The notes below the pieces were generated by a model, which was given only the letters and a program-made list of their open reading frames with translations, had not been told where the DNA came from and did no database searches. This document shows positions 11,382 to 17,149 of a DNA stretch of 64,000 bases, piece by piece; position 1 is the first letter of the stretch, and every line of letters begins with the position of its first letter. The DNA lies in the NCBI GenBank assembly GCA_029881795.1, contig JAOULX010000003.1, positions 62,001 to 126,000 on the forward strand, in the 5' to 3' direction. Origin of the DNA: Gammaproteobacteria bacterium. GTDB taxonomy: Bacteria; Pseudomonadota; Gammaproteobacteria; SZUA-229. The position numbers were made by a program, and so were the translations under genes.

Positions 11382-11993
11382 TTATTTCAAACCAGCGATA
11401 AACTGAGAAACGGCTTCTATCTCGTCATTGGTCATACGAGCCGCTACATTACGCATCATCTTACCGGCATCATTCTTCCGCTTGCTATCACGGAAATCAC
11501 GTAATTGCTTGGCAGTGTATTTAGCATGCTGGCCTTTTAAAGACGGGAACTTAGCACCCGGGTTACCGGCACCGCTCGGAGAGTGACAACCCATACAGGC
11601 TGGAACACCCGATGACAAATTGCCACCTTGGTATATCGCTTTACCCAGCTCAACCTGCTTCTCGTCAGCCATACCCGGCTTACCTGTCTGCACAGCGTAG
11701 AACGCAGCCAAATCATGCATATCTTTTTCACTCAGTGCAGCAACCATACCTAGCATGGTTGGGTCACTACGATGAGTCGCTGTTTTAAAATCGGCTAATT
11801 GCTTAGCAAGATAGCCCGCGTGCTGGCCAGCTAACTTAGGAAACGCGTCGGCTGGCGCATTACCATCGGCACCGTGACAACCCATACACATAGCCGCTTT
11901 GTTTTTACCAGCAGCAGCATCACCAGCGGCCATAACAGCAGCGTTAGAACCTAAAAGAGCACAAAGTGCAGCAATTAATAATTTAGTTTTCAT
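11382..11993 (-). CDS. Diheme cytochrome c4
   Basis: The 203-residue periplasmic electron carrier has a signal peptide ending near AVMAA and two similar c-type heme domains. The heme sites are CMGCH at residues 36-40 and 133-137, with distal Met ligands probably in DPTMLGM and KMMRNVAARM. Cytochrome c4 passes electrons from the bc1 complex to terminal oxidases. GGGAGAG lies at a good distance before the ATG. It has its own terminator. Its place beside resB-ccsA and dsbA groups a client protein with its maturation machinery. Confidence 0.95.
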   Translation of the reverse strand: MKTKLLIAALCALLGSNAAVMAAGDAAAGKNKAAMCMGCHGADGNAPADAFPKLAGQHAGYLAKQLADFKTATHRSDPTMLGMVAALSEKDMHDLAAFYAVQTGKPGMADEKQVELGKAIYQGGNLSSGVPACMGCHSPSGAGNPGAKFPSLKGQHAKYTAKQLRDFRDSKRKNDAGKMMRNVAARMTNDEIEAVSQFIAGLK

Positions 11994-12157
11994 TCGATCT
12001 CTCCCAGAGGATGGAATTTCACCTTACTTTCTGTAAGGCGCAGAAAAATTTGTGCGGCGAGTTTACACCACCACAGCGCTGGCATCAAAGGTATTTGGTC
12101 TTAAATTAGTATATATTGAATAAGTAATTGATCTTAGCTAAGTCTTTTAAAGCCCGC

Positions 12158-12172
12158 TATAATCAGGCGATG
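12158..12172 (+). promoter_or_regulatory. Consensus -10 hexamer six bases before the engB ATG
   Basis: TATAAT at 12158-12163 is separated from the ATG at 12170 by six bases. A transcript from this hexamer would start at or near the A of the ATG, giving a leaderless mRNA. No good Shine-Dalgarno sequence is present. The -35 match (TTAGCT) is weak. Confidence 0.4.
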
Positions 12173-12814
12173 AATACATACTACAAACGTCTGCGCTTTC
12201 TGATCAGCGCTGCCGCTAAAAAACAGTTCCCCGATACAGAGACCCTTGAAATCGCTTTTGCAGGCCGTTCAAATGCCGGAAAATCGAGTGCTATCAATGC
12301 ATTAGCCGATAATAAAAATATCGCACGCACCAGTAAAACCCCTGGCCGTACACAACTGATTAACTTTTTTTCTCTCGATGAAAGCCGTCTGCTGGTCGAT
12401 TTGCCCGGCTATGGTTTTGCCAAAGTGCCACCCAGAGTCAAAAAACAATGGCTTGACCTGATGGAGAGCTATCTGGCCGATCGTCCCAATATTGTGGGTC
12501 TGGTCATTATTATGGATATTCGTCATCCCCTGAAGGAATTTGACTGGAAAATGCTCGAATGGTGCGCGCACTTTAATATCCCCGCCCATGTTCTGCTGAC
12601 AAAAGCCGATAAACTTAAAAAAGGCCCGGCCAAGGCCACCCTGTTGCAGGTTCAAAAATACATTAAAGAGGAAGGTCTGCAGGCCACTGTACAGATGTTT
12701 TCTGCACTCAAAAAACTCGGTATCAGTGAACTTCATCAACAACTTGATCAGTGGCTGGGGCTACCACTGCCTGAGCAGGCTAAAACCCCAGCCCCGGATA
12801 CTCAGCTATCATAA
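12170..12814 (+). CDS. engB: Ribosome biogenesis GTPase EngB (YihA/YsxC)
   Basis: This is an essential-type GTPase that assists large ribosomal subunit assembly. I chose the ATG at 12170 because MNTYYKRLRFLISA aligns with family N-termini; an upstream start at 12128 would add 14 unrelated residues. GTPase motifs are in order: P-loop GRSNAGKSS, G3 DLPGYGFAKV, G4 TKADK and G5 SALK. The 214-residue length is typical. It is convergent with polA, as in E. coli and Pseudomonas. Its 3' end overlaps the remains of a GGDEF gene on the other strand by about 35 bp. Confidence 0.93.
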   Translation: MNTYYKRLRFLISAAAKKQFPDTETLEIAFAGRSNAGKSSAINALADNKNIARTSKTPGRTQLINFFSLDESRLLVDLPGYGFAKVPPRVKKQWLDLMESYLADRPNIVGLVIIMDIRHPLKEFDWKMLEWCAHFNIPAHVLLTKADKLKKGPAKATLLQVQKYIKEEGLQATVQMFSALKKLGISELHQQLDQWLGLPLPEQAKTPAPDTQLS

Positions 12815-13657
12815 TACAGTTTCTGCCATGCTGTTTACCTTTGTACAGACACTTGTCTGCCTCAGCAATGACTTTTGCAATCTTCTGAGAGCCATCAAAA
12901 ATTGCCATGCCGAACGTCATGGTGATGCTAAACCGATGGCTTTCTTAACTAAAGTCAGACGAAGCAATCTCTTTACGCAGTAATTCGATGACCTTAGATT
13001 TATCGCTACGCTGTAGCCTGATCTGTTCCAGCTCCAGTAATTCATACATTTTTCTGCGGTTATATAATCCGCTTAGCATATCAATACTCGCCAGCTGTTC
13101 CATTTCCCTCTCGGCGCGCATCGATGAGGTCCTTAGACCATCGCCTAACAAAGCTATTGCTAAAAAATTTACCCCAATGTTCATAATTTGCAAAGCTTTG
13201 ATCAGCTCCAAATTATGTTGCAGTAACTCGGTTTCACCACTGCTATAAATTAACAGCCAAAGATCGACACCGAGTACCACAGCCGACTCAAACACGATGA
13301 TTAATAAACTTTGTTTGTGATTGATAAAAATAAATAAGATGAACGGCAAGAAGTAATAATGAAAGCCGCTCTCCCAGCCTAGAAAATAGCTCGCTATAGT
13401 GACATGCAAAACCACTTCAACTGACAGGGCAAACATAGCCTCGATTTGACGGCCATTACGATTTAGGACAAGGCCAGAAGCCAGATAATGACACTAAAGA
13501 TATTAAAATAAGCCAGAAAATCGACGTCAATCATAAAAAATAACGGAATAAAGCTAAGATGAGTCAGGATTCCTAGATAAGAAATAAAATTGATGACGAC
13601 AAAAAGCCTGTAATTCTCTTTTACCACATGATCCGAAGACAGGTTAGATGCTTTCAA
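12780..13657 (-). pseudogene. Decayed membrane GGDEF (diguanylate cyclase) gene
   Basis: Three pieces on the minus strand form one broken gene. Piece 1 (13463-13657) is a membrane N-terminus ending WLLALS-stop. The adjacent frame continues the same protein (GLVLNRNGRQIEAM), so a frameshift lies near 13461-13475. Piece 2 (12945-13436) has more membrane segments and the start of a GGDEF domain (LASIDMLSGLYNRRKMYELL). It jumps from RLQRSDK to SKVIELLRKEI with the metal-binding strand missing, then reaches SSDF and a stop. Piece 3, in the same frame after that stop, is the domain's end: ITMTFGMAIF, then ADKCLYKGKQHGRN, stopping at 12780. The GGEEF active site is absent, so two internal deletions removed the catalytic parts. 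It cannot make cyclic-di-GMP. Confidence 0.85.
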
Positions 13658-14037
13658 TAAACCGTAATTAATCCATTAACTGTTATAAATATATACCAGA
13701 TAACGCCTAATTCATTAAAAACGTTAAATAATTTTAACATTCCATTGAAAATAGTATTGTTTTTTTTATAGCCCTGCAGTAATGTTAGCTCCAGCTCAGG
13801 GAGCAAATTAGAACAGGGGCTACTCTAAACTGGTCAGATAAACCAGAGAATTCCCCCTGATCCTGCCTTCTCCTCTTAGGGGAGAGGGTTATCTTTTTTC
13901 GATATCCTTCCTACTCTCAGTGGGCATTCCAATACCACACAATACCTCTTCTGCACAGCTTATAGCGCAGCCTTTTAGCAGCTGCGAACTTTCTCGACTT
14001 AATGGCTTGCAGGGATAACAAAAAGAATTTGAAACTT
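13658..14037. other. Gene-free stretch between the GGDEF wreck and the small RNA
   Basis: About 380 bp, AT-rich in its first 100 bp (which includes an eight-T run), with no convincing reading frame on either strand. A small inverted repeat, CGCAGC and GCTGCG, lies near 13971-13991. I see no tRNA, terminator or clear promoter. Confidence 0.5.
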
Positions 14038-14071
14038 AAAAAAAAGCCCCGGCCTTTGGGGTTGGCCGGGG
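14038..14071 (-). terminator. Strong rho-independent terminator (3' end of predicted small RNA)
   Basis: On the minus strand CCCCGGCC pairs with GGCCGGGG around the loop AACCCCAAA, followed after one C by eight T. No minus-strand gene ends here: the polA stop is 250 bp upstream, past another hairpin. The terminator therefore most likely belongs to a separate short transcript. Confidence 0.85.
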
Positions 14072-14178
14072 TTAATGGTGGGCCGGTTTGGGGTAACCAG
14101 ACCCAATGTGTCCGCTCAGGGAGGAGAACGGACCGCGCCGGGCTACAGCGCTGCTACATTACTTAAAAATCACTTACT
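14038..14178 (-). ncRNA. Predicted trans-acting small RNA in the Spot 42/ErsA position
   Basis: A short GC-rich non-coding island lies downstream of polA and ends in the terminator above. Read on the minus strand it can form a stem GTCCG/CGGAC (14129-14133 with 14110-14114) around the 14-nt loop UUCUCCUCCCUGAG. A second stem CUGGUU/AACCGG encloses ACCCCA, and the terminator hairpin has loop AACCCCAAA. The first loop is complementary to Shine-Dalgarno sequences (GGGAGGAGAA), and all loops are C-rich, as in small RNAs that block translation starts. In E. coli spf (Spot 42), and in Pseudomonas ErsA, lie between polA and engB in the same orientation. Sequence homology to either cannot be claimed by eye. 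The 5' end is estimated from promoters near 14185-14221. Confidence 0.65.
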
Positions 14179-14184
14179 GAACAG

Positions 14185-14221
14185 ATTAAAGACTATGACA
14201 GAATGAAGTCAAAAGAGTTCC
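14185..14221 (-). promoter_or_regulatory. Overlapping sigma-70-like and sigma-E/AlgU-like promoters for the small RNA
   Basis: On the minus strand, TTGACT (14207-14212), a 16-bp spacer and TTTAAT (14185-14190) resemble a sigma-70 promoter with a start near 14178. GGAACTC (14215-14221), a 16-bp spacer and TCATA (14194-14198) resemble an extracytoplasmic sigma-E/AlgU promoter. Pseudomonas ErsA is known to depend on AlgU, which makes the second reading attractive but unproven. Confidence 0.45.
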
Positions 14222-14223
14222 GA

Positions 14224-14269
14224 TAAATGGTCTCAATCGTTACACTTCTGTAACGATTGAGACCATTTA
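14224..14269. repeat. Perfect 21-bp inverted repeat, 4-nt loop, between polA and the small RNA
   Basis: The arm at 14224-14244 is the exact reverse complement of 14249-14269, around CTTC. The stem is of average GC and no T run follows on the minus strand, so it is not a classical terminator. It lies 52 bp past the polA stop and ends two bases before the GGAACTC box of the small-RNA promoter. It may stop or process the polA transcript, or act as an operator. Confidence 0.8.
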
Positions 14270-14321: not shown

Positions 14322-17078
14322 TTAATGCGCTTCATCCCAGTTATTTCCACTATCCACTGAGACAATTAACGGCACCGCTAATTCAGCCGCTGCTTGCATT
14401 TGCTGTGTGACCATTGCCGAAAATTCTGCTAACTGATCGGTCGCTACCTCAAACACCAGTTCATCGTGTACCTGCATCACCATCAAGGCATCAAAGCTAC
14501 TATTTTGCATTTCTTTATCAACAGCAATCATTGCGCGTTTGATAATGTCTGCCGCGCTGCCCTGCATCGGTGCATTGATCGCGGTGCGTTCAGCATACTG
14601 ACGCCGCATTCCATTACGTGAATTGATTTCTGGCAGATACAGGCGACGGCCATATACTGTTTCTACATAGCCATCGTCATGTGCTTGGGCCCGGGTTTGG
14701 TCCATATAGGCTTTGACACCGGGATAACGCTCAAAATACACATCGATATAGTCCTGCGCATCAAAGCGGCTGATATTGAGTTGCTTGGCAAGACCAAAAG
14801 CGGACATGCCATAAATCAAACCAAAGTTGATGGCTTTAGCGGCCCGCCGCTGTTCATTACCCACCTTATCCAGTGCCAACCCAAACACTTCAGCTGCGGT
14901 CGCACTGTGCACATCCAGATCATTTTTAAACGCCGTTAACAGGCCCTGATCGGCTGATAGATGAGCCATAATTCGAAGCTCAATCTGCGAGTAGTCCGCA
15001 GCCATCATGATGCGCCCTGTTTCAGGTATAAAAGCCTGACGAATTCTTCTGCCTTCGGCACTACGAATCGGGATATTCTGAAGATTTGGATCGGTTGATG
15101 AGAGCCGACCGGTCGCAGCGACGGCCTGATGATATGACGTGTGCACCCTGCCGGTAACCGGATCAACCATCTTTGGCAGTTTATCGGTATAAGTCGATTT
15201 CAGTTTTGACAACGAACGACTTTCCAATAGCAGCTTTGGCAATTCGTATTCTTCGGCCAGCTCCTGCAATACATCCTCAGCGGTGGACGGCTGGCCTTTA
15301 GGAGTTTTACGAATCACCGGGATATCCATTTTCTCAAACAAGATATGCTGAATCTGTTTCGGTGATGCCAGATTAAATTCCTCACCCGCCAGCTCATAGG
15401 CTTTGGCTTCAATCGCTTTAATACTGACTTCCAGTTCGGCACTCTGCTGTTGCAACATATCCACATCGACTTTGACACCGATGTGCTCTATTTTCTGCAG
15501 TACATCCAGCAGCGGTAATTCAATCTCTCGATACACGGTTTGCAGGCTTTCCTGCTCAGCGAGTTTTGCCGCTAGGCTCTGGTGCAGCCGAAAGGTAATA
15601 TCCGCGTCTTCAGCCGCATAGGGACCGGCTTGTTCCAGTGTCACTTTATCAAAACTGATTTGTTTGGCACCCTTACCCGCTACATCTTCAAAATGGATGG
15701 TGTTCACACCAAGGTATTTCAGTGCCAGCGTGTCCATATCATGCCGGCTGGTTGAATCCAACACATAAGATTCCAGCATGCTGTCATCGCTGATGCCTTG
15801 CAGCACGATGCCGTGGTTCATCAGTACGTGTTTGTCGTACTTCAGGTTCTGCCCGATCTTGCCTTTGTTCGGGTCTTCCAGCAGCGGTTTTAATGCGCCC
15901 AGTACCTGCGCTTCGCTAAGCTGTTCAGGAGCACCCTCATAACTATGGGCAAATGGCACATAGGCAGCTTTAAAGGCTTCAACAGCAAATGACACACCAA
16001 CCACCTTGGCCTGCATATAATTAAGACTGGTGGTTTCGGTGTCGAACACAAAACTATCGGCGGCTGATAATTGTTTTAGCCAGTTCTCAAACTGAGCCAG
16101 TTCCAGCACAGTCTCGTACTCCAGCTCGGCACTTAGCTCGTTTTTTTGCGGTTTATCGGTGCTTTGACTGTCATCACTGGCTTCGTTTAACTGCCGCAAC
16201 CAGCTGTTAAATTCCAGCTCGCTATAGAGCTCTTTTAATCGCTCTTTATCAGCAGCCTGTAAGTTCAAGTCCTGCAATCCGGCCTCCAGTTGCAGCTCAC
16301 AATCAATCGTTGCCAACTGATATGACAACGGCAAATGGTCAAGGCTGTGCCGAAGATTATCGCCAATTTTGCCTTTAAATTTATCGGCATTGTCGATAAT
16401 CTGCTGTAACGAACCGTACTCTTTTAACCATTTGGCAGCTGTTTTCGGGCCGACTTTAGGAACCCCCGGGATATTATCGACACTGTCGCCAACCAGCGCC
16501 AGATAATCAATAATCTGATCCGCTCGGACATCAAACTTGCTGACAACACCATCGGGGTCCATCAAACTGTTGGTCATGGTATTAATCAGCGTGACATGCT
16601 CGGAAACCAGTTGCGCCATGTCTTTATCGCCGGTTGAAATCAACATCTCGGCACCCGACTCAGTGGCTTTTTTAGCCAGTGTGCCGATCACATCATCGGC
16701 TTCCACACCCTCCACCACCAGCATCGGATAACCCAGTGCCTGAACCAGCTGATGCAATGGCTCGATCTGCTCTCTTAAATCATCCGGCATCGGTGGTCGG
16801 TTGGCTTTATAGTCTTGATAAAGATCATGGCGAAAGGTTTTGCCCTTGGCATCAAAGATCACCGCCATCGATTCAGGCTGATATTCGTCCTGCAGTTTTT
16901 TCAGCATATTGATCACGCCATACACCGCGCCGGTATTCAGGCCCTTACTATTGGTCAGTGGTGGCATCGCATGAAAGGCCCGAAACAGGTAAGAAGAACC
17001 ATCGACCAGAATAATCGGCGCTGACTTTTTAGATTTAGATTTTTTATTGCTGACTTTGCTGCTGGATTTGGGGGCCAT
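14322..17078 (-). CDS. polA: DNA polymerase I
   Basis: This repair and Okazaki-fragment polymerase has all three activities. Residues about 20-290 form the 5'-3' exonuclease (VDGSSYLFRAFHAMP, then STGDKDMAQLV). The 3'-5' proofreading domain keeps the catalytic DTET motif (SFVFDTETTSLNY). The polymerase domain has motif A DYSQIELRIMAHLS, motif B RRAAKAINFGLIYGM and motif C MQVHDELVFEV. I chose the ATG at 17078 (918 residues); the longer frame would begin with TTG. A Ser/Lys-rich tail of about 20 residues precedes the exonuclease domain and is not usual. The gene diverges from the LOG gene and is convergent with engB. Confidence 0.96.
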   Translation of the reverse strand: MAPKSSSKVSNKKSKSKKSAPIILVDGSSYLFRAFHAMPPLTNSKGLNTGAVYGVINMLKKLQDEYQPESMAVIFDAKGKTFRHDLYQDYKANRPPMPDDLREQIEPLHQLVQALGYPMLVVEGVEADDVIGTLAKKATESGAEMLISTGDKDMAQLVSEHVTLINTMTNSLMDPDGVVSKFDVRADQIIDYLALVGDSVDNIPGVPKVGPKTAAKWLKEYGSLQQIIDNADKFKGKIGDNLRHSLDHLPLSYQLATIDCELQLEAGLQDLNLQAADKERLKELYSELEFNSWLRQLNEASDDSQSTDKPQKNELSAELEYETVLELAQFENWLKQLSAADSFVFDTETTSLNYMQAKVVGVSFAVEAFKAAYVPFAHSYEGAPEQLSEAQVLGALKPLLEDPNKGKIGQNLKYDKHVLMNHGIVLQGISDDSMLESYVLDSTSRHDMDTLALKYLGVNTIHFEDVAGKGAKQISFDKVTLEQAGPYAAEDADITFRLHQSLAAKLAEQESLQTVYREIELPLLDVLQKIEHIGVKVDVDMLQQQSAELEVSIKAIEAKAYELAGEEFNLASPKQIQHILFEKMDIPVIRKTPKGQPSTAEDVLQELAEEYELPKLLLESRSLSKLKSTYTDKLPKMVDPVTGRVHTSYHQAVAATGRLSSTDPNLQNIPIRSAEGRRIRQAFIPETGRIMMAADYSQIELRIMAHLSADQGLLTAFKNDLDVHSATAAEVFGLALDKVGNEQRRAAKAINFGLIYGMSAFGLAKQLNISRFDAQDYIDVYFERYPGVKAYMDQTRAQAHDDGYVETVYGRRLYLPEINSRNGMRRQYAERTAINAPMQGSAADIIKRAMIAVDKEMQNSSFDALMVMQVHDELVFEVATDQLAEFSAMVTQQMQAAAELAVPLIVSVDSGNNWDEAH

Positions 17079-17090
17079 GAGTTGTGTATA
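17078..17090 (-). promoter_or_regulatory. -10-like hexamer six bases before the polA ATG
   Basis: On the minus strand TATACA (17085-17090) stands six bases before the ATG, with no Shine-Dalgarno sequence. This repeats the geometry seen at engB and suggests a leaderless transcript. The -35 match is poor. Confidence 0.3.
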
Positions 17091-17149
17091 GTCCAATCAA
17101 GAAGAAGGCGAATTATCTCAGACGTTTTCCCCGATATGAAGGCATTATT

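Follow-up and report, generated by a model that had tools for sequence, protein, structure and literature searches.

sX13 is a small RNA (sRNA) that has been reported as confined to the Xanthomonadaceae, where it lies downstream of polA, and whether other bacteria, too, have sRNAs at the polA locus, and ones that act alike, was posed as a question (PMC3771888). It represses hfq without needing Hfq for this repression, and its action depends on the C-rich loops as well as on G-rich motifs at translation starts (PMC3771888). In Xanthomonas it is loop 2 of sX13 (CCCC), not loop 1, through which hfq is repressed. ErsA, the Pseudomon-1 RNA of Rfam (RF01719), occupies the interval between polA and engB and consists of two stem-loops and a single-stranded domain (PMC8575079). 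A further RNA, anti-hemB (RF02837; Burkholderia RNA 7 or ncS04), has no established function that a literature search could bring up.

The window analysed here is a stretch of 64,000 nucleotides from the 2.93-Mb genome of a bacterium in an uncultured gammaproteobacterial family that is not the Xanthomonadaceae; the closest named genome by PolA is MAG 8_1_Jan_SF_Bin65, at 85% identity. On the evidence of its sequence, the island between polA and the convergent engB is an independent sRNA gene (Table 1). A coding reading was dropped, since the longest open reading frame touching the island has 54 amino acids and none spans the length on the sRNA strand. The original prediction had placed an sRNA on the minus strand, in the position of Spot 42 and ErsA, and the flanking genes, promoter, fold and covariation all bear this out.

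Table 1. Features of the polA–engB interval and its surroundings (positions in the window)
Feature	Positions	Strand	Remark
engB, ribosome-biogenesis GTPase	12128-12814	plus	convergent neighbour, facing polA
RNA2	~13793-13899	plus	convergent candidate RNA with conserved terminator, 107 nt, genus-restricted
AGCTCAGGGAGC	13793-13804	plus	part of RNA2 with 10-nt complement of sRNA loop 1
sRNA gene	14038-14178	minus	transcript ~139-141 nt, start inferred from promoter
Intrinsic terminator hairpin, loop AACCCCAAA at 14063-14055, then C and eight U	14038-14071	minus	
Hairpin C, loop ACCCCA at 14094-14089	14079-14105	minus	
Hairpin B, loop UCCUCCCU at 14125-14118	14110-14133	minus	anti-Shine-Dalgarno type loop
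Hairpin A, GCGCU-GUAGCCC-GGCGC	14135-14151	minus	
-10 box TTTAAT, spacer 16	14185-14190	minus	conserved in most family loci
-35 box TTGACT	14207-14212	minus	conserved in several family genera
GGAACTC and GTCATA	14215-14221 and 14199-14194	minus	possible overlapping sigma-E (AlgU)-like half-sites
20-bp perfect inverted repeat	14224-14269	unassigned	between polA and sRNA promoter; T-run on plus-strand side
polA, DNA polymerase I	14322-17096	minus	sRNA neighbour

The predicted fold of the sRNA comprises four hairpins, A, B, C and the terminator, and has an energy of -56.2 kcal/mol; shuffled sequences average -42.1 (z -3.8), and none of 200 folds as well. Three hairpins had been described; they exist, as do the loops ACCCCA and AACCCCAAA, while hairpin A had been overlooked. 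The first loop, taken to be 14 nt long, really has 8 nt (UCCUCCCU), three bases on each side of it being paired. The motif ACCCCAAA does occur twice, as stated, and only the host's own genus has its repeat in the terminator loop. A sigma70-type promoter, TTGACT-N16-TTTAAT at 14212-14185, predicts a start near 14178, in agreement with the transcript end that had been proposed; the automated promoter scan overlooked this promoter, since it accepts a -10 box only with A as the second base. The arrangement TTTTGACWT followed by TTTAAT is kept across several genera of the family, together with an upstream CRYTCRTCGG-like element, and some genera retain GGTCTTTAAT alone of the promoter region. In the window this element lies at about 14220-14226 on the minus strand; standing 5' of the -35 box in several genera, it is a possible activator site. 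Further upstream, about 45-90 nt 5' of the sRNA start, is a perfect inverted repeat whose core GTTACA-N4-TGTAAC is kept in relatives of the genus, and which is a candidate polA terminator or regulator site. The microRNA-type Rfam matches at the repeat reflect its palindrome and were rejected as family members.

Compensatory changes in the stems had been set beforehand as a test of the prediction, and they are present. When the window sequence was aligned with 11 relatives collected by DNA similarity, 12 of the 28 base pairs were found doubly changed with the structure kept. A MAFFT alignment of 28 sequences, fitted to no structure and compared with 500 shuffles, has 93.3% of its cells paired, a share that falls to between 27 and 48% when the partners are slid. 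Double changes affect 19 of the 28 pairs in this alignment (7 of 8 in hairpin B, 7 of 9 in hairpin C), which no shuffle reaches, and the cells with double changes number 77 against 24 in the shuffles, again with 0 of 500 as high. Among the 71 family sequences, CTCCC stands in the hairpin-B loop of 64, and the hairpin-C loop has CCCC in 66 and CCCCAA in 54; CTCCCT is present in 63 and CCCCAA in 58, where dinucleotide shuffles lead one to expect 8 and 9, all of these counts being biased upward because the model used for finding the sequences already holds the motifs. The distinction between changing stems and fixed loops is equally plain in the alignment made from sequence only. Across the family, the loop sequences CCUCCCU and CCCCAA are retained while the stems covary.

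Two covariance models, R1 from 12 family sequences and the broader R2 from 71, were used to follow the RNA through the class. The search across relatives that had been suggested gave R1 matches in 42 of 54 genomes of the host family (21 of 22 among the good ones) and in 124 of 370 genomes of the class; nothing convincing was found with R1 in 148 Pseudomonadaceae-type genomes, and E. coli genomes gave no match. At E 0.001, R2 matches 196 of 370 gammaproteobacterial genomes and 147 of the 274 genera sampled, and its only match in the whole 64-kb window is the sRNA site itself (E 5e-24). The suggestion that the RNA is a lineage-specific regulator is contradicted by this spread, which by model search includes sX13. 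In the 60 loci retrieved, polA lies just upstream on the same strand in 37 and a convergent engB downstream in 41; both are present in 28 and at least one in the expected orientation in 50. Named genomes with the RNA after polA include Thiohalobacter, Halothiobacillus, Thiogranum, Methylococcaceae, Kangiellaceae and Lysobacterales, and several of these are MAGs. Thiohalobacter thiocyanaticus Hrh1 (L178) is a cultured bacterium with the RNA next to polA. Judged by these matches, the sRNA is part of a large, class-wide polA–engB family, most of which has no Rfam match at cutoff; the window RNA has its four hairpins, its fixed CUCCC and CCCC loops, its covarying stems and its two neighbours. A literature search, in which subscription journals were thinly covered, gave no description of such a family.

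The arrangement of the family's genes varies. Some genomes carry two to five tandem copies; in three loci, four or five divergent copies stand between polA and engB (L086 3001-3749, L106 3001-3930 and L101 3001-3737), and several of those in L101 are without the C-rich hairpin-B loop. A few copies lie elsewhere, beside hslV/hslU-like genes or near a HemB-like ORF (L107). In Aquisalimonas and an Ectothiorhodospiraceae MAG, the sRNA is downstream of polA on the opposite strand (L192 6768-6882 and L179 4615-4732, both minus).

No Rfam family matches the window at gathering thresholds. Under relaxed thresholds the best match is anti-hemB, at 34.3 bits (E 3.7e-6; gathering cutoff 49.5, not reached), and the sX13 model (RF02232) scores 19.6 bits on the window RNA (E 0.27; cutoff 50, not reached). 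Spot 42 (spf, RF00021) has only position and orientation in common with it: there is no RF00021 match at gathering or up to E 10, in keeping with the view that the sequence looks unlike Spot 42, and identity with that RNA was rejected. Spot 42 is not known to have C-rich loops of the kind seen here.

Besides its position and a similar length, sX13 shares with the window RNA three stem-loops with C-rich loops (UCCUCCCU, ACCCCA and AACCCCAAA in the window); its CUCCC, CCCCAA and C-rich terminator loop are all present, and hfq is a candidate target common to both, although the first hairpin of the window RNA is unlike that of sX13 in sequence. The three sX13 genomes were left out of R2, and the model still picks up each of their three cutoff-level sX13 loci, at identical coordinates and beside PolA, scoring 32-35 bits (E about 1e-6 to 3e-7); conversely, the sX13 model reaches a member of the host's own family (G007, E 3.3e-5) and other polA-linked members. 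The anti-hemB RNA has a loop, CUCCUCCCUGA, identical over the aligned stretch, and its Rfam model passes the cutoff at four family members (L070, L110, L120 and L124), beside polA or engB. It is shorter than the window RNA and is found near hemB, whereas the window RNA adjoins polA and engB. Because R2 recovers the sX13 loci, the sX13 model reaches the family and anti-hemB passes at family loci, we regard sX13, anti-hemB and the window RNA as homologous; homology with ErsA is possible.

We therefore consider it probable, from sequence and by analogy with sX13, that the island encodes an autonomous trans-acting sRNA, a homologue of sX13 and anti-hemB, whose C-rich loops repress translation and whose likeliest conserved target is hfq. 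The loops UCCUCCCU and ACCCCA, held on rigid stems, would pair with G-rich Shine-Dalgarno or initiation sequences such as GGGAGG and GGGG, and this pairing would block the loading of ribosomes on several mRNAs. The C-rich loops are complementary to ribosome-binding sites, as had been claimed, and since sX13 bears the same C-rich loops, the same mode of repression is predicted; by this analogy we infer multi-target silencing. The host genome encodes Hfq, and its hfq has the ribosome-binding site AGGGAG; as a repressor of this gene, the sRNA would hold the RNA chaperone itself in check.

Among possible targets only hfq was tested, its regulation by sX13 being the reason for the choice. Of 30 family genomes (L245 and L250-L278), which are related and so not independent, 19 have GGGAG and 26 have GGGA in the Shine-Dalgarno sequence of this gene. 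The controls were hflX, directly downstream of hfq, with GGGA-type sites in 0 of 27, and the genes of the window, with GGGAG in 1 of 48 (a cytochrome c4-like gene, 11382-11993) and GGGA in 7 of 48; starts were set by simple rules, crudely for hflX. Loop 1 would form about seven pairs with the hfq site at -10.9 kcal/mol, which 5.8% of shuffled sites match. We take the unusually G-rich hfq Shine-Dalgarno sequence of the family as a lead rather than proof.

An alternative is that the RNA is ErsA-like, that is, induced under envelope stress by a sigma-E/AlgU factor, dependent on Hfq and acting through a linker as well as loops. ErsA shares with the window RNA the polA–engB interval (PMC8575079) and a C-rich terminator loop, the window sRNA has a long U-tail beside an encoded Hfq, and nine ErsA-type loci give weak R2 scores of 18-26 bits, owed in part to the terminator. 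GGAACTC-N16-TCATA, with half-sites that are nearly fixed in the host's genus, would suit such a promoter, but it is found in that genus only; outside it the half-sites are lost and the sigma70-type boxes alone are kept, for which reason sigma-E was rejected as the general driver. ErsA itself, with its sigma22 promoter and Hfq dependence, differs in architecture, having two stem-loops and a single-stranded domain against four hairpins. RF01719 matches Pseudomonas loci at 81-134 bits and the window not at all up to E 10, so that ErsA was rejected as the direct family. We consider an ErsA-like RNA unlikely.

The convergent RNA2 raises another reading, in which the sRNA's main job is with this neighbour as an sRNA–sponge pair. 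RNA2 is single-copy and varies hardly at all among the genus's four genomes; a search of 54 others did not find it, and it has no Rfam match. A proposed promoter, TTGTTT-N17-TAATGT, would set its 5' end at AGCUCAGGGAGC, an exact 10-nt complement of CUCCCUGAGC in hairpin B, as long as is matched by 0.3% of shuffles only. Complement and linkage are kept in all four genus genomes (10 nt, or 9 and a G-U pair in one), and the local duplex of loop 1 with RNA2, at -21.8 kcal/mol, is stronger than the -10.9 computed for hfq. RNA2 is thus a candidate sponge of the sRNA, via the segment GCUCAGGGAG. The total energy of the sRNA/RNA2 duplex, however, is unremarkable (11% of shuffles), whole-length energies being uninformative, and GCUCAGGGAGC is palindromic by itself. 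An RNA of one genus cannot, moreover, account for the wider family, and as the main job of the sRNA the pairing seems very unlikely. At 12945-13657 on the minus strand lies a broken gene, split into two ORFs; its last part is similar to the beginning of a GGDEF domain (ASIDMLSGLYNRR), and it has no Pfam match.

That the island is no trans-acting sRNA at all but the processed 3' end of polA, or else a terminator and spacer structure by which the polA mRNA is protected or ended, is scarcely credible and was rejected as a 3'-UTR reading: the gap is short where polA precedes the sRNA (median 168 nt), but the sRNA has a conserved promoter of its own, C-rich loops conserved though termination needs none, copies that stand in tandem or apart from polA, and an orientation opposite to polA in Aquisalimonas and the Ectothiorhodospiraceae MAG.

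The autonomous, loop-acting sRNA thus remains the preferred reading, and its spread through the class is of more interest than the single RNA of the window. We speculate, as a doubtful extension, that one ancient polA–engB sRNA gene underlies sX13, anti-hemB, ErsA and the window RNA, that its conserved job would be the repression, via two C-rich loops, of hfq and of further mRNAs whose Shine-Dalgarno sequences are G-rich, and that RNA2 would be a dedicated sponge in the host's genus. A covariance model for annotating the gene is now supplied. The first half of the question posed for sX13 is answered, in that roughly half the gammaproteobacterial genera sampled carry a related RNA; the second half, a shared mode of action, has been made testable, with hfq as a conserved candidate target across the host family.
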